A stretch of 64,000 nt of DNA from Takashimella koratensis. Taxonomy: Eukaryota; Basidiomycota; Tremellomycetes; Trichosporonales; Tetragoniomycetaceae. Shown in pieces: positions 5,871-57,130 of the stretch. Where the stretch lies: assembly GCA_003116875.1 (NCBI GenBank), contig BCKT01000011.1, positions 682,001 through 746,000 of the forward strand, written 5' to 3'. The notes under the pieces were generated by a model that worked only from the letters and a program-made list of their open reading frames with translations, was not told the DNA's origin and ran no database searches. The translations under genes and the position numbers were made by a program. The stretch's first letter is position 1, and every line of letters begins with the position of its first letter.

Positions 5871-8800
5871 CTAGACCAACAACGGGCCCAGCCCCTTCCA
5901 CGCCCCTACGCCCGGCCGCACCGCCTCTCGTGCCTTTGCTACCTCGCCTCCGAGCCCCATTCCTCCCGACTCCTCGGCGGCAGTCAACACCATCTCCCGA
6001 TCTGCCCATGCGGTCCCTATCGCCGCCTCGAGGCGGGTGCGGAAGCCGATCACTGTAGCCTGCAGCGCCCTCGCGAGGTCAATATGGTCAGGTGACGCGA
6101 GGAGCAAGTGGCGTAGCAGCGGCACGGCGTCGGCGCTCTTCTCGTCCACACGAACCACAAGGCGGCCAATACTCGCGACCAGGTAGTCGTATTCGTCAAC
6201 CGTGCCTTTACGCCCAGCTTGTCGTTTCTTCGACGGCCGGTGTTTGGACTTGGCCGTTTGTCTGCGCCCCATCGTTAGTCTCGCCCCTAGGATCTCAGAA
6301 CAGTGAGCGTGGACTCACCCGGTGACACGAGTAGACTGCGACATGACTGTTGTCGGGGCGACAGTGTACCTCGTAAACGCAGTCATGACCGTGGTCGCGT
6401 TGGTGGCGACATCGACATTCTCCAATTCTACCTCGTTGTCAACAATGTAGAATGTATCTGGATTGTATTAGCTCACAACACCTCAAAACTGAGTCTGACT
6501 TGGCACTTACCTGGGTCGGTTTTGCGGATCTCATGGAGCTCTGCAAGCCGGTTCATCTCCTTATCCAGCTGCCCGTCCATCTCCTCAAACACCTCTGTCA
6601 ATGCCTCGTGTGCATCTTCCAGGCTCGGGTAGATGACCGACTCCACCAGGTCGTCGCGCCCATGAAGAGCAGCCTGTAGCCATTGTCAGCCTATCTACCA
6701 CAATCAAGCTGTATATTACTCACCAAGCGGGAAGCCTCGGCAAACTCTGTGCCTCGACACAACACGTCCACGGCGGCGTCGACATCCTCGGCATAGTCTA
6801 TCAATATCCGTGATGCCTCTACGCTCTGTCCTCGAGACGTCAAGTGATCTATAACCTATCAGTACCAACGCTTCTCTCTTCTCCACCAGTGACCAACTTA
6901 CCTGTGACGCGCTCGCACATGCGCCTCGAATTGTCAGGAGATAATTCCTGCTTTCGAGCCAACGTGAAGAGCTCCCGCCACGCATACGCTTTCTCGTACG
7001 CTTTCAACGCTTTATCCGGGTTTTCGGCAAGAATGTAGGCTGGGAAGTCAGAGGTGACAAACCAAATGAGAGCTCACCAGTAGCTGCGTCCTTGAACTCT
7101 CGGCGATCGTATAGGTAATCTCCGTAAAGTCCATGCACCACCTGGCTTTGTCAGCGGATAGTTGCAATAATGTCGGGCGACATCCATGATGGCTCACCTT
7201 GAGGTGGTCTGCTTCCTCTTTGTACAGAGCAAACGCCTCGTCAAACAGCTCGTATCGGGAGAGATACGACGCGGCGTCCTCGAACCGAGATGGGCCTGAG
7301 GGATCAGCTGAGCTCGGCCGCGTGAAGAAAGACCAACTCACCAGCAGCGTGCAAATTCCTCAAGGCCTTCTCTCGTCGACCCAGGTGATCGTCAATCCTG
7401 AACTTTTGCTCGTGCGTATCAAGGTTTCGCAGCTCTCTCAAGAATGGAAGATACTCTTTCGGGTCCTGAAATTGATCAGGATTAGCCAAGCGAATCACCA
7501 CTACTGGTAAGGTGTAACTTGGGCTCAACTTACCTTTTGAGAATATTGCGCGACCATGAGGACGAGCTGGAAGTCGTACATTCCCAAAGCGACGTCGAAC
7601 AGTTTGTTGACGTCTGACAAGAAGATGATATATTTGATCGCGTCTTCGACGATATCCGCGTGCTCGGCTACACAAAAGCAATCAGCACGAGAAGAAAGTA
7701 CTTTAGAAAGGCAGGAGATCCAAACTTACCTTGGAGGCGCAGGAGAATGTTCAAGCCTGACTCGTAGTCTGGGGGAGACTTGCAAACGTGCGTAGTCAAG
7801 ATTGTCTCGACGTACTCGACCAGACCCTTCGCTTCAAGTCTGATTCGGAGCGCGTCACAAATGGCGTTAATCTTGTCCGACGGCACGCTATTATACGACT
7901 ATCAGTCAAAGATTCTTCGTGATACAACCAGAAATGTGACATACCTCTTTGTCGAGTCCCGAGCGAGGTCCTGGTACAAGACTTTCGACGAGTCTTCGCC
8001 GCTGTAAAAGGGGTACAGGTCAGCTCGTAGCGTCATTGTAGAGACAGGAGCAGACCTACCTCAAGGACGACAAGAAAAGGTTGAGATAGTCGACCTCGGG
8101 GATCTGTTCAATCACTTGGTCGAGGTTTGCCATGAACGCCTCGGGAGCGAGATCGTAAATGACGTTAATGTCCAATCGGTGTTTACGGCACGTAATGAAT
8201 GCTGCTCGATACTCGCCACTTGGTAATGCCAGTCAGCAACTCCCGTGATGCAGGCTAAGCATAGTCTTAGAGTATCCAAAGGTGGCTGTCTTTAAGCCAG
8301 GACTTACGCAAGGACGTCTCGCCTGACGACAGCAAGGACCAACGGTCTGGGGTAAATCGTCTCCAGATTACCTCTGGGCATCTGCAAGACGAGACTCATC
8401 GAGCTCGGGCAAGCGACAACTGCCAGAGCTCCTCTCTCTATCCTTCGTGTCTCCCACTGATCTGTTCCCGTAACGACCTCCTCTCCCTTCGCCATTTGAG
8501 CCACGACGACAAACGGGGCGTAATGCGAACTTTGTGCTGTGGTCGTCCAGATGAGGAAATCGGGGGTCAGAGCAAACGAAGTGACGCCAGCGCCCAAAGT
8601 GATGGACCCGTATCCAGTCTCGAGAGGGGTGATGTGCAGTTTACCAATCTCAGAAAGAGCGACAATGAGACCGGATTCGTGAGAAATGGCCGCAGACTGA
8701 GATCGAGGGCAGAGGTCGAGTGTGAACGCAGGCGATTGCGCTGAGGCTGTGTCAGAGTAGAATAAGTGTAGCAGGTAAGGACTTACGAGCTCCGACTGTC

Positions 8801-13709: not shown

Positions 13710-15888
13710 ATGCACTTCACCGCTCTCGCCCTTGCCGCACTTGCTCTCTTCAACACCGGCTCTGCCGCGCCTATCCCTACCAAGCCTGCGCCGGCTGCTG
13801 CTAAACGTGACGTCGATTACCTCGGTGTCCTCGCCACTCTCCAAGCCGATGTCGTGAGTCCGCCCACTGACATCTACCGTTTGCCATCTGCCACTCTCGC
13901 CTTCCCTGCTTCAATGGTCCTTTAAACGAGCTGACCCATTTTTCTGGTAATGCTTAGTCCGCCGCTATTGGAGGGATCGTCGACGTGACTGTCGCGGGTG
14001 ATGTTTCGACCGCGCTGGGCACTATCAACGCCGCCATCGGCGTCGCCATTCTCGGTCTCGACATCGACGTTGATGTCGACGTTTCCGCGTAAGTATCGCA
14101 TCTTGCTTTTCCTTTTGCTTTCTTCGACATCGCTGACAGACTGCCACACAGCCGCCGTCGCGACTTGATCGACGCCGACGTCGGTGTCTTCGCTGGCGTT
14201 GATGTGTGAGACTTCTTCCTTATCTGAAACTGCTACTCGGCTCACATGCATCATCGCTAACACCTCCCTAGCCTCCGCCGCGGTCTCATCGATGTCGACG
14301 CAGACGTGCTCGCGGCTGTTGACGTGTAAGGCTACCCCCGGGACTGACTTTCAAGTTCTCAGTCAAAACAGTTCACTGACACCCATTCAGACTCCGTCGC
14401 AGCCTCCTAAACGTCGATGCTGACGTTCTCGCCGACGTCGAGGTGTAAGTTGAGCACTTTATCCAACGGGGCTTGTCTTGATCCTGGATCCGTGCGTGGA
14501 GCAAATCTGACACTTCGCAGTCTCCGCCGTGATCTCGTTGACGTCGGTGCCGATGTTCTCGCCGATGTTGAAATGTATGTACTCATCATCTATACGATGA
14601 CGACGAGACTAACGCCCACTCAGCCTCCGTCGTGACCTCCTTGACACCGACGTCGGTGTCCTCGCCGCTGTCGATGTGTACGTCCAACTCAACCTCATAC
14701 TTGTCCCTGTCGCGACTGACCAAGTACCCAGTCTCCGCCGTGACCTTGTGGACGCCGATGTCGACGTCCTTGCCGCCGTTGACGTGTGAGTCAGCTCCCG
14801 AAGCCACGTTATCTTGATAATCCCTCACTGACATCCCACAGCCTTCGCCGCGAGCTCGTCAGCGCCGACGCAGATGTCTTTGCTGGCATCGAGGTGTAAG
14901 TCAATACCGATGTCTGCAAAATGCAAGGGTAGCCACTGATTCGGTTCAGGCTCCGCCGTGACTTGATTGATGCCGACGTCGATGTCCTTGCTGGTGTTGA
15001 AGTGTAGGTCACCCTCGGTTCATTCATTTTTTAAAGGCAAACATTACGTCGCTAACCCGGTTATCAGTCTCCGCCGGGGCCTCTTGACTGCGGATGCCGA
15101 TGTTCTTGCCGCCGTCGACGTGTTAGTTGGTCTCCAATCTCAGGTGTACCTATTCCCAGCTGATGATTCAAACAGCCTTCGCCGTGCTCTCATCGACGTC
15201 GGCGCTGATGTCCTCGCCGATGTCGCCGTGTAAGTGTACTTCCGACTCATTCACTCTGCCCGACCTCCATTCCTCGCGACTTTACCAAAGCTGACATTAC
15301 CCAGCCTCCGCCGCGGTCTCCTCGACGTCGACGCGGATGTTCTCGCCGACGTCGCCATGTAAGTCCCTCCCCGACCCCCTTTCTCTCACCCTGAGCTGCT
15401 GCTGACTTGTACATAGCCTTCGCCGCGACAACCTCACCGACGAGGTCGGCCAAATCCTCGGTACTGTAGTCGGCGACGTTGTTCAGCTCGTTGATGGTCT
15501 CACCGACGCTGTCCTTGGCGACTCTCTCGTCGTAGGTATCTCTCTCAACTGCTTCCCCCTCCATCAAGCTCCTTACAATCCAGCTGCCACCTATATCATC
15601 ACGCACTTGCTAATTCTTTTCTCAGTCCTCGCTCTTGACCCAGGTTGACAGCGCACTCGCCGAGGTCTTGACCGGCGTCGACGACGTCCTCTCTGGTGTC
15701 CTTGGTCTTGTCGCTGGCATTCTCTCGGACCTCGGCATCAACGTCCCTGCCATCCTCAGCTCCGTCCTCGGTCTCGTCGGGGGTCTCCTCGGCGGGGTCA
15801 CCGGTCTCCTCGGAGGTGTCCTCGGAAGTGAGTCGAGCACAGTTTAACTAAGAGTTGGAGCTGACACGCGCGGTATTCAGGCCTCTGA
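13710..15888 (+). CDS. Secreted dibasic-repeat precursor A, candidate Kex2-processed peptide precursor (16 exons)
   Basis: Reconstructed protein of 397 residues. Exon 1 (13710-13853) encodes a signal peptide (MHFTALALAALALFNTGSAA) and a Lys-Arg site followed by DVDYLGVLATLQADV. Exon 2 (13958-14088) is Ala/Val/Ile-rich. Exons 3-13 are each exactly 54 nt, bounded by phase-2 introns, and encode eleven 18-residue repeats of the form VLRRDLIDADVDVLAGVE (RRRDL in the first). Exon 14 (15417-15531) opens with a twelfth LRRD, then a C-terminal domain follows (exon 15, 15626-15827, Gly/Leu-rich; exon 16, 15881-15888, only 8 nt). Arg-Arg in every unit suggests Kex2 cleavage into about 16-residue acidic peptides, as in fungal KEP proteins; this is inference. 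No cysteine, so not a hydrophobin. Start: ATG at 13710, since upstream in-frame codons lack signal-peptide character. Family not recognised. Confidence 0.85.
14152..15358 (+). repeat. Array of eleven 54-nt coding repeats, one per exon
   Basis: Exons at 14152-14205, 14272-14325, 14391-14444, 14521-14574, 14624-14677, 14732-14785, 14842-14895, 14950-15003, 15068-15121, 15176-15229 and 15305-15358. Each starts with (C/T/A/G)CTCCGCCG or a close variant and ends in a GT or AT dinucleotide that is the first two bases of a split codon. Intervening introns are 49-76 nt and not visibly alike. Consensus translation per unit: V-L-R-R-(D/G)-L-(I/L/V)-D-(V/A)-(D/G)-(A/V)-D-V-L-A-(A/D/G)-V-(D/E). Confidence 0.92.
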
Positions 15889-17674: not shown

Positions 17675-19406
17675 ATGCGCTTCGCTTCGATTGCCATCGC
17701 CTCTGTGCCGCTCTTCCAGCTCGGTGCGGCTATCCCCCTCGGCCACGCCAGCCCCGACTCAGTCGCCAAGCGCGACCTCCCCTTCCTCTCGATAGTCACT
17801 ACCCTCCAATCCGAGGTTGTAAGTGCACTCGTTTTATGAATCTTGCTGCGTCTGACTCGAGACTTTGGGGCTTCACTGACTCCTTTCTTAGACCTCGGCC
17901 ATCTCAGGGATCAGCGACCTCTCTTCTGCTTCGGCAGTCTCGAGTGCTCTCTCCTCGATCCAGTCGTCGCTCTCCACTACCCTTCTCGACTTGAACATCA
18001 ACCTCCCTTCTACTGGGTGAGCATCATATCCCCTAGTCTCGACCACTGCTCCCATCGGGTCACCCTTTCGCTCTACCCCTCTACCAAAACTAACTCGCCT
18101 ACTCCCTTCAGCGGACTTCTCCGCCGCGAACCCGTGGAGGACCTCGACTTGTAAGTTTATTTTGATTCTTGGTATTATATTCCAGATGAGAAGCTGACTG
18201 TCAACAGGGAGAAGCGCCACAGAGACGATGTGGTCGCTGACGTTGACGTCAACGCCCATGTCGACGCCAAGATTGGCGGTGGACACATGTGAGATTGATC
18301 GAGTGCTGTCGAGATGACCGGAACTAACCTGAACCTAGCCACAAGCGTCACCGATCTGACGTCGATGTCGATGTTCATGCTCACGTTGACGCTGGCGTCC
18401 ACATGTGAGTGAATTGTTCCAGTCTCTCATCTGCGACTCCGAGGACGTGAATTGATCCCCGTCCCACAGCGGCCGCCGAGACCCATGCTATCACAAAGTG
18501 GAGTAAGTGTTACCTCTCATTAACGTATGGTCCTTGCAGCCACGCCCTTGACCATGCTCGATTCACTTGCTTACCAAACCGTAGAATGGGCTACGAGTTC
18601 GACGACGAGCCTTTGTCGATCCCTTCGATCGCTTACGTCGAGGGTTCCAAGTCCAGCCACTACCTTTCGTATGTCCATTCTTCAGCCCGATTGACGCCTT
18701 CTAACTGACCCTTGACTGGACCTGAAGGAGCAAGTATAACAAGAAGAACAAGGGCAACAAGCTCTCCAAATTCCTCGGCGGCGCTCCATTCCTCGCCGAC
18801 ACGGGTATTGGTAACGGTAACTTGATCATGTAAGCATGCACCCTCTCAACGGCTATAACTGTTGGATTGAGCTGATAGGAATCTCAGGCGCCGGGACGAC
18901 CCCACGAGCCAGGTCGGGGAGGCTTTGACCGGTGTCATCACGGAGCTCTCTACGCTTATTGACGGTCTTGACGGCGGTGTCCTCGCCAACACGGCTGTTG
19001 TAAGTTCACACCCTACTACTCCACCTGTCATTTCTCCGCCAGCCCTTCCTCTCTAGCCTACCTACCGCCCCGGTCACGACTAGACTGACTCGTAATCAGG
19101 GTACAGAACTGAGCCAGGTCGACACCTCGCTCACCGAGCTCCTCGCGGGACTTGATATTTCCCTGACCGGCGTTACTCAGCTCGTTGACTCGCTCCTCGG
19201 CGGTAACGGAGTCGCCATCCCCAGCCAGCTTGGGTCCATCACCAGCCTCCTGGGCGGTCTCACTAGCGGCGGCGGCTCGGGTCTCCTCAGCGGGCTTCTT
19301 AGTGGTGAGTTGAGTCCGAACCAGGCCTGAATGGAGTGTTGTCTTACCACGAGATCGAGTAAAGTGGACAAAAGAGCGTCGACTAATGGTGTCTTCAGCT
19401 CTCTAA
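17675..19406 (+). CDS. Secreted dibasic-repeat precursor B, paralog of A (11 exons)
   Basis: Reconstructed protein of 332 residues. Exons: 17675-17818, 17892-18016, 18112-18150, 18208-18288, 18339-18404, 18470-18502, 18585-18668, 18728-18829, 18888-18999, 19100-19304, 19399-19406. Exon 1 (144 nt) and the last exon (8 nt) have the same lengths as in precursor A, phases match throughout, and the ends align (KRDLPFLSIVTTLQSEV against KRDVDYLGVLATLQADV; ELSQVDTSLTELL against SLLTQVDSALAEVL). It has a signal peptide, then dibasic sites: KR after the pro-segment, LRREPVEDLD, EKRHRDDVVADVDV, HKRHRSDVDVDVHAHVD, GRRDPCYHKVE, MRRDDPT. Nearly every one falls in the first codons of an exon. Two units are Asp/His-rich and might bind metal. 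One Cys only. An adjacent Lys/Asn segment (YNKKNKGNK) is unique to B. Product inferred as a Kex2-type precursor; no family recognised. Confidence 0.82.
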
Positions 19407-29463: not shown

Positions 29464-31078
29464 ATGCGCACCACTTTCGCACTCGCTGCCGCTGCTCTCG
29501 CGGGCCTCGTCGCTGCTCGCCCGGCGTCCGTCGACGTAGTGGAGAAACGCTGGTTCCCCATCACCCCCAAGGTCTTCATCTTCTCGTAAGTACTTTCCAC
29601 CTCTGCCTTTCATTCCTGCGCTCCTGCTTCTCACCACCAAGGTCGACACTCCTCGTTCCCCTTCATCTGGATATCCCCTCACATCATCCATGCCTCTTGG
29701 CTCGCCCTCGCAAGACCTGACCACCTTGCAGCTTGTTCGACCCGGAAGACGTATGGACGACCAACCTCAAGCTTGACCAGAATATTACCATCCCGGGACT
29801 CTCCCCGCTCTTCCCAGATGTACACTGCAACGATGATGGTAGTATCTGTCATATCACCACGGGTGAGGCGGAGATCAACGCCGCCTGCAGTGTTTCGGCC
29901 CTCATGCTTTCGCCCGACTTTGACTTGACCTCGACTTACTTGTGAGTAGGGGAATCTACCTTGTTGTCCTCTCCTTGTTCGTAAGAGACTGAGGCTGACA
30001 TCAGACTCCTTCTCCTTCTCCTTCTCCTTCTCCTTCTCCTTCTCCTTCTCCTTCTCCTTCTCCTTCTCCTTCTCCTTCTCCTTCTCCTTCTCCCTACCCT
30101 ACCCTACACCTTCAGCCTCGTCGCGGGTATCGCGGGTATCAACCCCTTCACCGGGACTCTCGGCTCTGTCGGTCTCGCTCGCTACGCTGTCCAAGTCGCG
30201 CTCGCATACGAGATCGACGCTCGCCAGATCCCTTCCAACTGGACCACCGGCTACTTCCTCCAGGGCTCTACTGCCCCCGGTCAAACCACCACCGACATCT
30301 ACGGTACTGAAGTCTTCGAGCTCAACACCAACCTTCGTGACGCTATCATGCCTTACCTCTCTGGTGTCGTCCTCAACGATACCTCTGAAGCTGCCGCTTA
30401 CCGCGCCAACTACAACTACGCACCGGCCAACGAGTACCCTCAGATCTTCTACGGTGACGTCGCGACTTCCGACGTCTACTTTGCCGGGAGCCTGTTGGAC
30501 GAAGCGTTTGGGAACATTACTTTGCTCTGGACGAACGGTACCGGCAAGTACTCCCTCACTGCCCAAGAGGACAACGCCAGCTTCGAGGCAATGGTCAGGG
30601 CCCAGAAGGCCGGTTTGGTCGACTTTTCTCGTGTCATCCTGATGCGTACTGCTAGCGACTTTGACCGCGCCCCTCCCAACCAGGACACGTGAGTGACTTC
30701 AGCCATCCTCAACCTGGCCCTCTGTTCTTCCTCTCCTTCCCTTCCCATGCCCCTTACCTCCCTTCACCCCAACGTTGTATCCTCTCGTCTTCACTTCAAG
30801 CCCGTGCTGATCTCTCCAGCGTCTATTCGTTCGAGATCGACCAGGGCGGCTTCGACCCTTCCATCGCCAACATCTACATCGCCGGTCTCCCTATCATCGA
30901 GGGTATACTCGCTGACTGGGACTCTACTTTTGCTGCCGGTATCGCTCCCCAAGACGGATGGCTCTACAACGCCGACGACCTGCACACGCTCACGAGTCTC
31001 CGCAAGCGCGCGGCCGAGGTTCGTCGCGCTAGCGAGATGCGTAAACGCCAGATCGCCCGCCGTTCCCTCGTCGTCTAG
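29464..31078 (+). CDS. Purine nucleoside permease (NUP) family protein, secreted (4 exons)
   Basis: Exons 29464-29585, 29732-29941, 30116-30688, 30820-31078; 387 residues. The N-terminus is a signal peptide (MRTTFALAAAALAGLVAARP) followed by a Lys-Arg site, then the NUP-family body: KVFIFSLFDPEDVW, VPGLSPLFPDVH-like IPGLSPLFPDVHCNDDG, TTGEAEINAACSVSALMLS, FLVAGIAGINPFTGTLGSVG, ARYAVQVALAYEIDARQIPS, TTGYFLQGS. This family was named after a yeast nucleoside transporter but its fold resembles nucleoside phosphorylases, and this member has only a signal peptide and no multipass membrane region, so a periplasmic or extracellular nucleoside-handling role is more likely. The C-terminus is an unusual basic tail (LRKRAAEVRRASEMRKRQ) with several dibasic sites. 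Intron 2 contains a hexanucleotide microsatellite. Confidence 0.9.
30007..30093 (+). repeat. (CTCCTT)n hexanucleotide microsatellite in intron 2 of the NUP-family gene
   Basis: About 14 perfect copies of CTCCTT, pure pyrimidine on the plus strand, ending about 20 bases before the 3' splice site at 30115. It lengthens the intron to 174 nt against about 75 nt typical here. Confidence 0.95.
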
Positions 31079-50869: not shown

Positions 50870-53800
50870 TTACCCAACGCGATCGACTACACTACTCTCG
50901 CGCCATAACCTCCCCACATCACCCGCATCGTCGTCCAACCCCCATTCCAGCTCCGATCCAATATCTTCATCCATCCCATTCGCTACATATTCGGTCCTGC
51001 TTTCGAGACGAGAGCGTTTCCTCGCGAATCCCGATATGGACCCCTCATCGAACTCGGCAAGGCCATCGACAGTCATGCTACCTGAGCTCGAGATCTTGGT
51101 CGTTGGTCGTGGCCCCGATCGTAGAGGAGATGAGAATGACAACGAGCTCCGACCCGCTCGATTCGTACGTTTCGACGCAGGGTCAGATTTGAATCCTATA
51201 GGACCGGGTGAAGATCGCGCCATGGGGATAGGAGACGAGTACCTGCCTCTCCTCGTGTCCATCGATACAGACTGAGACCTTGACCTTGACCTCGCAGCAC
51301 GCAATTTTGCCCGCGCTCTCAAGAAAGCGGGGGTGAATGTAGTGTAAACGATTTCTGGCCGGTCGTCATCGTCGTCTTCTTCTTCTTCTTCTTCTTCCTC
51401 CTCTTCCTCCTTCTCCTCCTCTTCGTGATCGTTGTACTTTCCAAGCACGTCGTCATCGCTATCCTCTTCGTCGTCGTCCATCTCGATCGCTTTACGTTTC
51501 AACGGTGACTCGCTCAACGTCCTTCCATATCGCACCCCTGACCCAGTTCCGCCTCGTCTAGGCGTCGGCGAAGTCGGTTCGTCCGAGTTCAGAGTGTACC
51601 TCGATAACATACGAGAGGGGCTACTGAGGCCCCTTCCCTCTGATGCGCGATTCGGGACTGGGGGAGGCAACATGAGCCCCATCCTAGGTGATGATGCGAT
51701 TGCGCCAAGACTAATGCCGCCGATACCGCCGGTACGCGCGACGGGAGGGACGAGCGGTGATGAAGTGATAGACAGGTTGGCGGATGGAGACCGAGAAGTT
51801 GCTGGCGAGCTGATAGGTAAATGTCTGTGAGGGGCGACCCTCTCAAATGGGTCTGAGGAAGGAAGGTGGATCGGTGATCGAGGGAGTAAGAACGATGCTG
51901 CCTGGAACCTCGGTGTCGGACTCAATTCTTCATCGGTTTCCTCATCGAGGCTCTGAGTCGTGGACAGAGCAGAACGCATAGCAGCGCTAGCACCGAACGG
52001 GACCTGAACCATTGATGGAGAAGGGGAGAGGGACGAGCCTGCCGCGTCAGGAGTCGCAGACGGTGGCGGCGTAGGTCGTTGATGTACCGCATTCACTGTA
52101 TCTGCTAGGATCTTGGAAGGCTGTTTGTCGATATCGCTAGTGGATTGGGGCGGAGACGATGGAGGAAGCGAGAGAGGAGAGACCATCGCTGAATTGTAGT
52201 CTGTATCGCCCTGGTCAACGCTATTCTTCTCTCCCAGGGGAGCACCGCGGTCGCGTAAATCCGTCGACCACCATCGTCGTGCCGAGGGTTGAGAGGCAGC
52301 GATCGTCACAGGTCGGGGTCGAATCGAGTCGACCTGTGACGAAGCCGGCCTGTCCGCATCCGTGCCTGCGTTCGCGGTTGAAGCGGTCGTGGTCGAAGTC
52401 GTAGTAGTGGACGTGGTTGAGGTGGTGATGTTGGTGGTGGTAGGTCCGCCGGCATCAGCAGAGTCCGAGGGAGCCGGTGGGGGAGTGAAGATTACTCTTG
52501 ATCTATTGGCCTGGGCAACAACGATTGCGTTCGCTTCACGTGCGGATTCACCTGCCGTTGCGTCCTGAACCATCTCGCTCGACTGCCTTCGGCCTGCCAT
52601 TGATGGTCGCCCGCCTCGGCCCCGCTTTCCTTTGAACCCCCGTTTAGAGCCTTCCGCCAACGTTCGTAATTCGATCCCAGACCTCGTCTCTCTGATTCTC
52701 AGAGCACTCTCTCCTCCTTCATCTCCTACCCCACCCTCCGCCGTCGATGTTACTTCCTCACGCTCTCCTTCTCGCGGTACACTTTGTCCAACCCGTTTCT
52801 CCAATCGACACTTGGACCACTTGTTCCTCCCCTTGCACCACTTCGCATACCTCGCTCTCTCCCCACCTGCCGCGACGCACAAGCGACAGGTGAAGTAGTG
52901 CACTTGGTCGGGGTGGTTGCTGTGTGCGGTTCGGCGGAGGTGAGGGAGGTACGGCGAGTCCTGGTCACGCGCGCCCTCGGGTGGTCCTTCGTGCTGTTCG
53001 GACGCGAGGTGAAGGTCGGTATCGTCCAGCCCTTCGGCAGAGGACGGAGGGGTGGGGACCGTGACGGGGCCGGGAGTGGGAACGGTCGAGGTGGCTACAG
53101 CTGCGGCGTTGAGCGCAGAAGCGACATTGGCGATCGCAGTAGCCATCAACCTGTTTGGCTCGCCATCCACATCGCCCGAGTCGAGATATTTGCATTTAAC
53201 CCCGCTTCTGCGCCCCGGACAAAACGAAGCGCTGTCTCGCCTCTCGCCACCGGCCTCCAAGCACTGAAGACAAAGCTTTCTCGGTCGCCCTTTGCGAGAC
53301 TTTCCAACACCCTCGGTCGGCGTTGTCGGTGTCATCGGCGTCGCTGCCTGAGCCCAAGCCCGCACCGGCACCTGCGCTGGCGTCGACGTGAGCGTTGGCG
53401 GTGGAAGGAGAGCCTGGAGTCGAGGGTGGGTAAACGAACTCGTTTCAACGGGATTCACACTGGCCGTTCTTGCCGTCCTCATCCTTATGAGTCTTCCCGG
53501 CGCAGACTCCACTTGGATCGGGTCAACCGTTTGCGCTCGACGCACTCCGTCCACTGACATTGGAGTCGTCGGCGATCCCAACCCCACAGTCGCTGCCCGT
53601 GACTTTGACCTGGACCTCGACCTGACCGGCGAGGGATTGAACGAACATAGCGCAGGCTTGACTCTCCCTGCGCAGTACTCTGCCAACTCGGCCCTCTTCC
53701 CACCCGCCACGAAACACAAGTGGCACCGGCGATACCCCCTTTTCGTGCTCCGCATCAGTCTGTCGGCGAGGTACCGCAACGAAGGCTTCTCGTCTCCCGC

Positions 53801-56656
53801 CGCGTCCGGCTCAAAGGTCGCGGCGGCGGCGAACTCGGTTCCTTCTCGAGCACGTCGGGCGGAATCGTCGTCAGCAGACGGCGCGTGCCCGCCTTGGTCG
53901 ACAGGGAGGTCGGAAGGGCATAGGGAAGGTCGGATACGACCAGGACAAAATTCGGCCATCTCGGCCCGCTCACCCCCCGCGTGACGGCACGCACGGCAGC
54001 GGCGGGACGTCTTGCCCCGGGCTAGGATAAGGCGGGCCGCGTGGATCGGAGACGCGTTGGTGTTTTCGTCAGTGGGCACGGACTGCTGACGCCTACCCGT
54101 GAGCGTGGACGCGACGGTCGGGGTGGACGGTGAAACGGAGATAGAGTTTGCTGTGGTCCTAGGTAGCGCAGGTAATGGCGTAGCGAGGGTCGGCGCCGGC
54201 TGGTCCCGCACAACGACTGGACTCGCATCGGCAGCGTTGAACCAAATACAGTGATTTCTCCTGAACCGTCCGGGACAAGCGATTGCACCCTCAGCTCGCT
54301 CGCCTCCCGCCGCTCGACACGCTTGGCACCCCCGGGCAACTCGAACTCGCCCCGAAGATGTCTGTTCCATCGCGTCCTGCCTAACCGTTGGCGTGATCAT
54401 CACCGTCGGGGAGATAGAGGCAGAAGATTCCCGTCGCTCCGTACGGATCTGGTGTCGCTCTGCTCGTGGGGTTCGGTCAATCAATCCTTCCACGAGATCC
54501 TCGTCCTCCCAATCGTCCTCATCCTCGTCATCCTCCTCCGCCTCCTCGTTCTGGCTCTTCGCCGCATCTGACGAATCCATATCGTCGTCACCCGATCCAC
54601 TCTCAAGATCGAGTTCCTCCTCTTCCTCCGAGCTCGAAGTCGCAGCCGACGACTCGTCCCCTCCTTTTGACCTAGACCTCTCCACGCTATTCGTCTTCTG
54701 TACGGGCGGCCTTGACGAGGGGGAATTAACCAGAGCAAATTCGTAGGAACAACGTGAGGCACTGAACCGGCCTTTACACCATACGTCGAGCTCAGCGCGG
54801 TCTCCACCGGCTTTTCGACACGCGACGCAGTGACGGAGAAGACCGTTACGGTTGTAGTGCAGTTTGGAAAAGTATCTATCTGTGTCGTTCGGGTCGGGTA
54901 TGAAGACGGGAGATTGGTGAACGATGGTGGACGACGGCAGTGAAGTAGACTGGGCAAGAGGGGTGAATTTGGCACGCGGGGTGGACTTGATAGATCGCTT
55001 GGAGGGTGCGATGGTATTGGAAAGTTCTCTCCAGTTGTCCTCATCATCGCTTTCATCGTCGATCTCGATCGGTTCTTGGTCCACAACACGTCGACCTGGT
55101 GTCGCAGCCCGGCGCACAAGGGTTGTTCCGCCTGTGTTGATTCGAGGAGTTTCATCTCTGGTTTCACGCTGTTTCCCCTTGACACGGCCAGATCTGGGCG
55201 GCGACGTCAATGGGAACACCTCTGTGTGTTCTGCGAACCGAACGCGCATGGACCCCGTCGACATTCTCGAAGCCCTCGAAATCCGCGCCACCCGTGACAC
55301 CCCCTGAACAGGCGAAACTGACGGGCCCGCGTCGTCGGGTCCCTCGTCCCGCGGGACCATGGAGAAAATGTCGTCCATTGAAATATTTGTTTGAGAGAAT
55401 CGGAGAGACGATGCTGATGAGACGAGTGCGGTGTGAGCTCGCAAGGATCGGCTGTTTTTGGTGATGAAGCGAGACAAGATGGGAGAGGAGAAACGAACGG
55501 GAACGTTCATGTTCACGTCCATCGAGTCGATCATGTTGTCGTCGTACCTCTGTTCCATGTAGCAAGTAGAGTCAGCGTGTGATGCTTTGACGGCCACTGA
55601 AGCAAGGGCGCAAGAAGGCATGATGTGGGATAACACCGACGGACTCACGGAGATGTCGGTTTCAACTGGGGCCGGTGTGATACGGCGCACTTCCTCGGCA
55701 TCCGAATCTTCCGCCGCCAACTCGTCGTCTGTCTGCTCGTGCTCGCTCAAAGGCTCTTCCGACGCCGTTATCGATATTCTCGTCCGCCTCATATGCGGCT
55801 CCAGTGCGTAGTACTCGTCTGCACTGTTATACGGGGACCCCGACAATGACCTCGTGAGTGACCGCTCCCTCCCGTCTTCGTCCGCCGCCAGTCGCTGTTC
55901 CGCATCGGCACGGAGGAACGCCTGAAGGTCCTCATCGTCCTCGCGCGTCCACGGTCGGGTCGGCGGCTCGGGTGACTCTGGAGCGCCTTGTTCATCAAGC
56001 CCCGACCTGTCCCCCCACTCGCCTAGCTCGTCCTCGTCCTCGTCAAACTGATGCGATTCCGGTCCCGTGCCGCCCACCCCACCGTCTAGCCCAAACAACA
56101 GCCCACCGCTCTCGTCATCTGAGACGTCCCCAAACTCGCGCCCTTGGAGCTGCCGCAGCCGACCGCGGTCATGGACTACCCGGCCAGTGGCGAGATCGAT
56201 CTCGTCGTCGTCCTCTGGTCGGATAGACCCGTACTTGTCCATGATCTGCTGCCATGTATCCACGCACTTTCGCGTCGACTGATACCGCGCCCGCAAGAGG
56301 TAGTCGTCATCGACCAAGAGCCGCTGCTGTGGTGTGGCCGAGCGGGAACGGGAGCGGGCGGAGACTGAATGGAGGAGTGGGGCGGTCGAGGCGCGGCCAT
56401 GGTGTGCGGTGAAAGAGGCGTTGGAGGGGGCAGGGGAGGAATGGAGGTGTGAAGGGAGCCGTGACCGAGTATGGGCAGCGGAGGAAGAGGAAGTGGGTCG
56501 GAGAGGAAGGGGTGCAGGTGAAGGATCAGGTAATGGCTGATAGTCGGTGAGCTTGAAGGGAGGGGGGAAGAACGGTCGGCGCGATGGACCGGCCTCGTCA
56601 GAGACCGAGAGCGAGGGAGAGTCCCTGCTCATCTCTGAGCTGAACCGAGGTAACAT
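50870..56656 (-). CDS. SCM3: Scm3/HJURP-type CENP-A chaperone candidate with six Cys4 modules
   Basis: Long reading frame; a phase-neutral 99-nt intron (55550-55648) starts GTGAGT and ends GCTGAC...ACAG, leaving 1,895 residues. At 120-175 lies the Scm3 core: TWQQIMDKYGSIRPEDDDEI, DLATGRVVHDRGRLRQL. Scm3/HJURP deposits the centromeric H3 variant CENP-A. Between about residues 575 and 1235 are six modules with identical spacing C-X2-C-X13-C-X8-C and a shared core AGG(E/D/K)RAE...C(P/K/A)GR, for example CRACRHAGGERAEMAEFCPG. Each has four Cys, so each could hold one zinc ion. Elsewhere it is disordered and Ser/Pro-rich, with an acidic run (nearly pure Glu/Asp) near the C-terminus then RARAKLRAARSRSRSQS. 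Fungal Scm3 proteins are known to carry extra, variable DNA-binding modules; this array is probably one. Start ATG at 56656 is the only good Met before the Scm3 core. Confidence 0.82.
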   Translation of the reverse strand: MLPRFSSEMSRDSPSLSVSDEAGPSRRPFFPPPFKLTDYQPLPDPSPAPLPLRPTSSSSAAHTRSRLPSHLHSSPAPSNASFTAHHGRASTAPLLHSVSARSRSRSATPQQRLLVDDDYLLRARYQSTRKCVDTWQQIMDKYGSIRPEDDDEIDLATGRVVHDRGRLRQLQGREFGDVSDDESGGLLFGLDGGVGGTGPESHQFDEDEDELGEWGDRSGLDEQGAPESPEPPTRPWTREDDEDLQAFLRADAEQRLAADEDGRERSLTRSLSGSPYNSADEYYALEPHMRRTRISITASEEPLSEHEQTDDELAAEDSDAEEVRRITPAPVETDISVSPSVLSHIMPSCALASVAVKASHADSTCYMEQRYDDNMIDSMDVNMNVPVRFSSPILSRFITKNSRSLRAHTALVSSASSLRFSQTNISMDDIFSMVPRDEGPDDAGPSVSPVQGVSRVARISRASRMSTGSMRVRFAEHTEVFPLTSPPRSGRVKGKQRETRDETPRINTGGTTLVRRAATPGRRVVDQEPIEIDDESDDEDNWRELSNTIAPSKRSIKSTPRAKFTPLAQSTSLPSSTIVHQSPVFIPDPNDTDRYFSKLHYNRNGLLRHCVACRKAGGDRAELDVWCKGRFSASRCSYEFALVNSPSSRPPVQKTNSVERSRSKGGDESSAATSSSEEEEELDLESGSGDDDMDSSDAAKSQNEEAEEDDEDEDDWEDEDLVEGLIDRTPRAERHQIRTERRESSASISPTVMITPTVRQDAMEQTSSGRVRVARGCQACRAAGGERAEGAIACPGRFRRNHCIWFNAADASPVVVRDQPAPTLATPLPALPRTTANSISVSPSTPTVASTLTGRRQQSVPTDENTNASPIHAARLILARGKTSRRCRACRHAGGERAEMAEFCPGRIRPSLCPSDLPVDQGGHAPSADDDSARRAREGTEFAAAATFEPDAAGDEKPSLRYLADRLMRSTKRGYRRCHLCFVAGGKRAELAEYCAGRVKPALCSFNPSPVRSRSRSKSRAATVGLGSPTTPMSVDGVRRAQTVDPIQVESAPGRLIRMRTARTASVNPVETSSFTHPRLQALLPPPTLTSTPAQVPVRAWAQAATPMTPTTPTEGVGKSRKGRPRKLCLQCLEAGGERRDSASFCPGRRSGVKCKYLDSGDVDGEPNRLMATAIANVASALNAAAVATSTVPTPGPVTVPTPPSSAEGLDDTDLHLASEQHEGPPEGARDQDSPYLPHLRRTAHSNHPDQVHYFTCRLCVAAGGERARYAKWCKGRNKWSKCRLEKRVGQSVPREGEREEVTSTAEGGVGDEGGESALRIRETRSGIELRTLAEGSKRGFKGKRGRGGRPSMAGRRQSSEMVQDATAGESAREANAIVVAQANRSRVIFTPPPAPSDSADAGGPTTTNITTSTTSTTTTSTTTASTANAGTDADRPASSQVDSIRPRPVTIAASQPSARRWWSTDLRDRGAPLGEKNSVDQGDTDYNSAMVSPLSLPPSSPPQSTSDIDKQPSKILADTVNAVHQRPTPPPSATPDAAGSSLSPSPSMVQVPFGASAAMRSALSTTQSLDEETDEELSPTPRFQAASFLLPRSPIHLPSSDPFERVAPHRHLPISSPATSRSPSANLSITSSPLVPPVARTGGIGGISLGAIASSPRMGLMLPPPVPNRASEGRGLSSPSRMLSRYTLNSDEPTSPTPRRGGTGSGVRYGRTLSESPLKRKAIEMDDDEEDSDDDVLGKYNDHEEEEKEEEEEEEEEEEDDDDDRPEIVYTTFTPAFLRARAKLRAARSRSRSQSVSMDTRRGRYSSPIPMARSSPGPIGFKSDPASKRTNRAGRSSLSFSSPLRSGPRPTTKISSSGSMTVDGLAEFDEGSISGFARKRSRLESRTEYVANGMDEDIGSELEWGLDDDAGDVGRLWRESSVVDRVG
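52800..54835 (-). repeat. Six-fold C-X2-C-X13-C-X8-C coding repeat in SCM3
   Basis: Modules lie roughly at 54835-54748, 54330-54250, 54003-53925, 53735-53670, 53275-53195 and 52880-52800 (minus strand). First Cys pairs read CVAC, CQAC, CRAC, CHLC, CLQC, CRLC. The residues between modules are long, Ser/Pro-rich and not repeated, so only the motif itself was multiplied or conserved. Confidence 0.88.
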
Positions 56657-57130
56657 GGTGAGGACCTCGCCGGTGTGAGCTGCAGACCGACCGCGCTACG
56701 AGGTGTTGGTGGGTCCTGTGAGTTCAATGGCTGCTCATGTCCCCGTTGTCGACTTTGGTGTCGCCGGTATCTGCGTCGGAGTCGTCGGTGTCTTTGTGAT
56801 TGTTGTTGTTGATTCTTATGATTTTCTGCTCACTTTCACTTTCCTGGACGCGTCCCGGCCATACAAGCTATCATCAGTCCCTCGTTTTCCCCCCATTTAC
56901 TCCACGACGTCCCCTGTCTACGGGTATTCGTTTGACCCTCGACGCTCGTCTCTCACTCTCTCTCCATCCCTCCCTAACCATCTCAGTCCCCTGCCTACCC
57001 CACCCGATACCGACCTGGGCCGCCTCTCGAGGGCTTGAAGACGGCGTCTGAATCTACGGTAGACGACAGACCATCGCTGTTCCGTGACGCGTAGTCCACA
57101 TTGGTTATCACGCGCTCGGGTCGCGGGATC
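56657..57130. other. Divergent promoter of SCM3 and the DUF1746 gene
   Basis: 474 bases between divergent starts. It contains TGTTGTTGTT and TCTCTCTC tracts. No TATA box or E-box palindrome seen. Confidence 0.45.

Follow-up and report, generated by a model that had tools for sequence, protein, structure and literature searches.

Two adjacent genes of Takashimella koratensis, A and B, appear to encode secreted precursors that would be processed at dibasic sites into several peptides, a reading to which we give a probability of about 0.6, and in gene A each predicted peptide corresponds to a single exon. Both genes lie in the stretch of 64,000 nucleotides that was analyzed (the window, G000:C11:682001-746000), which belongs to a 25.1 Mb genome in 24 contigs and whose introns and genes look fungal, probably basidiomycete. 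In the proposed pathway, removal of the signal peptide would be followed by cutting of the propeptide at a Lys-Arg site, Kex2 would cut on the C-terminal side of the Arg cluster at the head of each cassette, and the Arg residues would be trimmed by a carboxypeptidase. For gene A the predicted products are eleven acidic peptides of 16 residues (for example DLVDADVDVLAAVDVL), together with an N-terminal piece of 59 residues and a hydrophobic C-terminal piece of 104 residues. Each peptide would be supplied by one symmetrical phase-2 exon, and as the exon edge all but coincides with the putative cutting site, duplication, loss or skipping of an exon would add or remove one peptide. We infer splicing, cleavage, trimming and function of gene A from its sequence.

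Gene A has 16 predicted exons, and its joined frame encodes 397 residues followed by a stop codon (Table 1). Exons 3–13 are each exactly 54 nt (11/11), are of phase 2-2 and are bounded by AG and GT, and the introns between them are 49–76 nt. GT..AG ends and a CTRAY motif, the latter located 15–28 bases upstream of the intron end, were found in all 15 introns of the gene; 14 of these begin with GTRNGN and one with GTTAGT, and all end in YAG. The encoded cassettes open with (V/I)-L-R-R, except for the first, which opens with A-R-R-R. The coordinates, the number, length and phase of the exons, the 397-residue product, the 18-residue consensus and the Lys-Arg site had all been claimed in the original prediction and were reproduced, the Lys-Arg site lying at residues 32–33. 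Introns 7 (14678-14731) and 11 (15122-15175) are also 54 nt and open in frame, such that retention would insert 18 residues; this is probably due to chance.

Table 1. Positions in the window of genes A and B and of their predicted exons.
Feature	Position	Strand	Description
Gene A	13710..15888	+	
Gene A exon 1	13710..13853	+	144 nt, ends in phase 0; signal peptide (judged by eye), short propeptide, Lys-Arg (residues 32-33); length equals that of gene B exon 1
Gene A exon 2	13958..14088	+	131 nt, ends in phase 2; terminates ...LDIDVDVDVSA
Gene A exon 3	14152..14205	+	54 nt, cassette 1: ARRRDLIDADVGVFAGVD
Gene A exon 4	14272..14325	+	54 nt, cassette 2
Gene A exon 5	14391..14444	+	54 nt, cassette 3
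Gene A exon 6	14521..14574	+	54 nt, cassette 4
Gene A exon 7	14624..14677	+	54 nt, cassette 5
Gene A exon 8	14732..14785	+	54 nt, cassette 6
Gene A exon 9	14842..14895	+	54 nt, cassette 7
Gene A exon 10	14950..15003	+	54 nt, cassette 8
Gene A exon 11	15068..15121	+	54 nt, cassette 9
Gene A exon 12	15176..15229	+	54 nt, cassette 10
Gene A exon 13	15305..15358	+	54 nt, cassette 11
Gene A exon 14	15417..15531	+	115 nt; ILRR, then C-terminal region
Gene A exon 15	15626..15827	+	202 nt; C-terminal domain, hydrophobic, two helices in the model; 45% identity with gene B exon 10
Gene A exon 16	15881..15888	+	8 nt including stop
Gene B	17675..19406	+	Tandem paralogue of gene A; 11 exons, 332 aa
Gene B exons 1-6	17675-17818, 17892-18016, 18112-18150, 18208-18288, 18339-18404, 18470-18502	+	
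Gene B exons 7-11	18585-18668, 18728-18829, 18888-18999, 19100-19304, 19399-19406	+	
Gene B exons 4 and 5	18208..18404	+	His/Asp-rich cassettes that resemble each other (KRHR..DVDV.AHVDA) and are related to the units of gene A

Between residues 34 and 397, all 25 Lys and Arg residues of gene A belong to 12 Arg clusters (one RRR, the other eleven RR) at the starts of exons 3–14; the cluster begins at the first whole codon in exon 3 and at the second whole codon in exons 4–14. The cores between clusters are 16 residues long and have net charges from -3 to -5, with polar residues alternating with apolar ones. Their mean beta-type hydrophobic moment was 0.331, compared with 0.192 (sd 0.076) in column-permuted controls, a borderline difference (p 0.054), and the alpha-type moment was not raised (p 0.38). 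Acidic peptides of about 16 residues had been predicted, and these 16-mers agree with that, but the number given, a dozen, becomes eleven on complete excision. Similarly, peptides had been expected to start with DL or GL, which holds for five and three cores, respectively, while SL, EL and AL open one core each.

The eleven cores all differ, and no single sequence is repeated. The precursor layout, and the S10 and DPPIV-type peptidase domains encoded in the genome, would also suit a signalling or pheromone precursor of the alpha-factor type, with peptides recognised by a receptor. This reading is very unlikely, as no X-Ala or X-Pro dipeptide (the STE13 signature expected after a dibasic site) follows the Arg clusters of gene A, the cores are eleven different sequences rather than one, and the type of residue varies at positions 5, 8 and 16 of the unit. 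Gene A was also compared with two other classes. Tyr, expected in the core peptide of a dikaritin or ustiloxin-type RiPP, is absent from the eleven cores; a genome search for UstYa (DUF3328) returned 0 matches with its control equally silent, and no UstYa was seen among the 20 of 29 long window ORFs that were scanned. As for hydrophobins (eight-Cys PF01185), gene A contains no Cys and neither gene has a hydrophobin match; the hydrophobin search of the genome was empty, its control being equally silent.

The repeat units of gene A were compared with one another at the protein and codon levels. Residues R3, R4, L6, V13 and A15 are invariant (each 11/11 units). Units 2–11 gave an alignment score of 22.9, compared with -2.5 (sd 0.6) after shuffling, while the 11 intron cores, with splice ends removed, gave -4.74, compared with -5.20 (sd 0.40), and have no clear common sequence; exons of identical length separated by diverged introns, as originally described, were thus confirmed. 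For pN/pS comparison unit 1 (ARRRD...) was excluded, and among units 2–11 the pooled values were pS 0.611 and pN 0.175 (dN/dS ~0.16), with pN below pS in 45/45 pairs. Divergence at synonymous sites among units is large (dS ~1.27), and per-site differences at codon positions 1, 2 and 3 were 0.137, 0.204 and 0.543, respectively. Mean unit identity was 0.65–0.74 at array distances 1–10 and did not fall steadily with distance; the closest pair are the neighbours 10 and 11 (identity 0.83). Judged by these codon patterns, the units are old copies maintained by selection.

The same divergence bears on an alternative in which the protein stays uncleaved outside the cell as part of the wall or matrix, each 18-residue unit being a structural repeat built as a strand-turn or a helix. 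The Arg pair would then supply a constant charge or a turn, and tandem exon duplication alone would account for the exon pattern. All eleven units are exactly 18 residues, without an indel, despite a dS of ~1.27, and this spacing suits a structural repeat equally well. On the other side, the confinement of Lys and Arg to the clusters over residues 34–397 speaks against an uncleaved repeat, as does the lack of any Pfam family above its cut-off in gene A. We consider this alternative unlikely, and processing into peptides is preferred.

A search of the genome with protein A gave similar ends at 17675-17833 (36% identity) and 19106-19303 (46% identity), which belong to gene B, a paralogue absent from the original prediction. 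The end exons have the same phases in both genes, and their lengths (A/B) are 144/144 nt for the first, 131/125 for the second, 115/112 for the third from last, 202/205 for the penultimate and 8/8 for the last, the last exon of gene B having been selected from nine possible acceptors by its match to gene A. When exon 15 of gene A and exon 10 of gene B were modelled together, from a weak alignment of two sequences only, two helices resulted (pLDDT 80.2, pTM 0.49). Between these ends, the cassettes of gene B (exons 3–8) are 39, 81, 66, 33, 84 and 102 nt, all of phase 2-2, and encode 13, 27, 22, 11, 28 and 34 residues, with no common length. A dibasic pair lies at most 4 residues after 6 of the 7 phase-2 junctions of gene B (into exons 3–9), compared with a random mean of 1.40 (p 0.00018, for a limit of 4 residues that was set after the sequence had been seen); the pair of exon 8 is reached only at the outer limit (SSKYNKK), and no dibasic site lies close to the start of exon 7. 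That dibasic pairs follow most phase-2 junctions even though cassette lengths are unequal argues against an uncleaved repeat and is consistent with dibasic processing. A plan in which a cassette exon opens with a dibasic site is apparent throughout gene A and in most of gene B.

Two of the gene B cassettes were compared with each other and with ten gene A units. Exon 4 scored 70 against exon 5 (shuffled 12.7; 0/2000 shuffles as good), exon 5 scored 24.2 against the gene A units (shuffled 3.0; 0/2000), and exon 4 scored 20.2 against the same units (shuffled 3.6; 2/2000). When the basic head was held fixed in the shuffles, the corresponding counts were 0/2000, 0/2000 and 7/2000. The other four cassettes showed no similarity by eye. 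As a guess, the His/Asp-rich cassettes (KRHRSDVDVDVHAHVDAGVHI and its relative) could bind metal ions. Only A and B were present among the best candidates of the protein search of the genome, and no third family member was found in it. An 18-base motif pattern, allowing one mismatch, matched the genome 38 times (10 at gene A cassettes, 28 elsewhere), compared with 18 matches for the reversed control.

Both proteins were searched against ~5.8 billion proteins, with the 7996 candidates sharing most words being scored. Gene A had one match at E up to 10, CDD83_4490 of Cordyceps sp. RAO-2017 (P0001; E 7.2e-4), and gene B had no homologue at E up to 10. One weak homologue for one gene and none for the other among the candidates scored would fit a reading of the exon model as a product of chance or decay, describing a pseudogene or an unspliced region. 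We regard this reading as extremely improbable: the 25 introns across the two genes have canonical ends, the branch motif is present in 15/15 introns of gene A and in 7 of the 9 tested in gene B (it is absent from introns 5 and 6, and intron 10 was outside the test), and the frames are intact, with codon-level selection, preferred codons and a paralogue of matching structure.

P0001 contains approximately four units, such as VEILRRDLVDADVDADVDVEIL, in the 18-residue register of gene A. The block of 11 gene A units scored 39.4 bits against P0001, and none of 300 free and none of 300 class-preserving column permutations was as good, the best class-preserving control reaching 38.9 bits. With residues 15–120 of P0001 as the query (best 7996–7997 candidates scored) a relative was retrieved, P0002, which is 71% identical to P0001 and scored 18.5 bits against the block, a value that stands without a control. 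In both proteins, over approximately residues 20–115, Asp/Val units are joined to a large Cys-containing region; in P0001 this region is unmatched by gene A (second segment, -6.4 bits). At the unit boundaries of P0001, R40 and R58 are the only Arg residues aligned with an Arg in P0002; no Arg pair occupies the same position in both proteins, and the two RR pairs that P0002 does contain are slightly displaced. P0001 thus shares the register of gene A but differs from it in having only about four units, an unconserved Arg pair and the Cys-containing region. As the Arg pair is not conserved between P0001 and P0002, the motif does not require a fixed dibasic site; this weighs against processing and, with the shared register, favours an uncleaved repeat. 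The likeness of P0001 and P0002 to gene A may reflect either common descent or convergence.

Neither P0001 nor P0002 has a Pfam family above cut-off, and the structure model of P0001 was unusable (mean pLDDT 30.5). The statement that no described family carries the motif holds within the database searches made, except for the likeness to these two proteins, themselves without a Pfam family. Sub-threshold Pfam matches (DUF6118 and Baculo_PEP_C for gene A, Baculo_PEP_C for gene B, DUF3194 for P0001) were taken as composition effects, P0002 gave no Pfam match, PHROGs gave no match for gene B, and a PDB sequence search with gene A returned two thrombopoietin chains (E 0.26 and 0.29), which were not considered meaningful.

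Gene A was compared with known repeat precursors. KEPs are delimited, in the available text of one survey, by at least three tandem repeats of at least 8 aa between KR, KK, RK or RR, with none over 100 aa (PMC7329392). Gene A, with eleven 16-residue cores between Arg clusters, lies within these bounds and also fits the criteria of the second survey (PMC6339444), as compared with the printed criteria rather than by the repeat programs of the surveys. The N-termini of genes A and B fit an ER signal peptide by eye, and a signal peptide and repeats between dibasic sites are what gene A has in common with KEPs as these are presented in the sections available (PMC6339444, PMC7329392, PMC9769878). 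Gene A is probably a KEP with one exon per peptide, the exon arrangement being the new part. Gene B alone has two similar cassettes (exons 4 and 5), fewer than the three repeats of the criterion, and is best described as encoding a related precursor of several peptides that falls outside KEPs in the strict sense. The strings "exon", "intron" and "splic" do not occur in the available main text of the KEP surveys PMC6339444 and PMC7329392, the first of which worked from protein catalogues; in the text available for PMC9769878 "exon" has 0 occurrences and "intron" one, in a cloning method. No KEP or other repeat precursor with one exon per peptide was met in searches of open-licence papers, and no known KEP matched gene A at E up to 10 (7996 candidates scored). 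The KEP peptide of Trichosporon oleaginosus given in PMC6339444 had no match either. For Tremellomycetes, 1.00 KEP per strain is given (PMC7329392).

Among individual precursors, Rep1 of Ustilago maydis is described, in the portions available, as yielding, on Kex2 cleavage, ten amphipathic peptides of small size together with one large piece (PMC4617103, PMC6339444, PMC7329392). The Rep1 peptides are 35–53 residues and its large piece 228, whereas the peptides predicted for gene A are 16 residues and acidic, and the database search with gene A gave no match to Rep1 at E up to 10 (7996 candidates scored). Rsp1 of the same species has, like gene A, eleven tandem repeats between putative Kex2 motifs, which in Rsp1 are imperfect and 18 or 21 residues long; unlike gene A it is described there as hydrophilic, and the likeness is one of description, not of sequence (PMC4617103). 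An SP7-type effector reading was dropped, since in the text available the SP7 repeats are hydrophilic, nuclear localisation domains are present in several members and the string "kex2" is absent (PMC11333574).

The genome was searched for domains of the enzymes that the proposed pathway would use. A Kex2-type P-domain (PF01483) was found at G000:C9:420646-420941 as two adjacent matches over cut-off, in a search limited to the P-domain of the enzyme, and by eye a membrane segment and then an acidic tail lie after it. S10 carboxypeptidase domains were present at four loci. Kex1 is an S10 enzyme and Ste13 is a DPPIV-type enzyme. A DPPIV-type peptidase gene lies at G000:C11:746577-748072 (-), just past the window and ~50 kb from genes A and B. 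Overall, a Kex2/KEP-type precursor, as put forward in the original prediction, remains the best available reading: the printed KEP criteria, the Arg clusters, the Kex2-type P-domain, the S10 domains and the dibasic pairs of the paralogue speak for it, but the Arg pair is not conserved in P0001 and P0002, and cleavage needs no exact unit length.

Pfam scanning of 20 of the 29 long window ORFs identified ELP1, a PH_10 protein, a purine nucleoside permease-like protein, Scm3, a PHD protein, a diacylglycerol kinase-type domain and a P-type ATPase, and gave no hint of a peptide-modifying cluster among the ORFs scanned. The open frame with the purine nucleoside permease domain has at its upstream end a pure (CTCCTT) array of 14.7 copies (30006-30093). 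The Scm3 centromere-protein domain, whose profile is 53 positions long, lies in an open frame of 1941 codons (50873-56695, -). Codons ending in A make up 3.8% of gene A and 6.1% of gene B, compared with 12.7–19.0% in six other window ORFs and 4.8% in the NUP ORF, the ORFs in this comparison being stop-to-stop frames; the bias of genes A and B may be a sign of strong expression. We tentatively suggest that the peptides have an extracellular role, as material of the surface or wall, comparable to that of Rep1 of Ustilago; this role is favoured by the Rep1 analogy, the alternating cores, the hydrophobic tail and the codon bias; this is the weakest step of the proposal.

The exon structure also has consequences for splicing variants. 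Any cassette of gene A can be skipped in frame. When the intron after a cassette is retained, the first whole codon after the split codon is a stop in 8 of 11 cases (the exceptions are introns 6, 7 and 11); these stops follow from phase 2 and the GTAAG/GTGAG-like donors and so are no separate evidence of design. Because skipping preserves the frame and retention brings in stops, many splicing variants would still leave whole units. On this basis, and given that each cassette exon is symmetrical with its edge at the putative protease site, gene A could be a combinatorial peptide gene, in which alternative splicing would set the number and mix of peptides and evolution would swap cassettes between the sister genes, as the comparison of A with B hints, a speculative extension that we think distinctly unlikely.

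Arrays of 54-bp exons that arose by exon duplication are found in fibrillar collagen genes, and in proglucagon separate exons encode separate processed peptides. Both are animal genes with other sequences, and their likeness to gene A is one of architecture only. If dibasic processing of genes A and B is true, fungi build multi-peptide precursors in an exon-per-peptide manner, which occurs in some animal hormone genes. Micro-exon genes may easily be split, mis-modelled or lost by gene predictors, so that surveys based on protein catalogues might undercount such precursors. As the units, the introns and a sister gene with other cassettes are all adjacent, the locus would be a clean case for exon duplication building and retuning a peptide repertoire.
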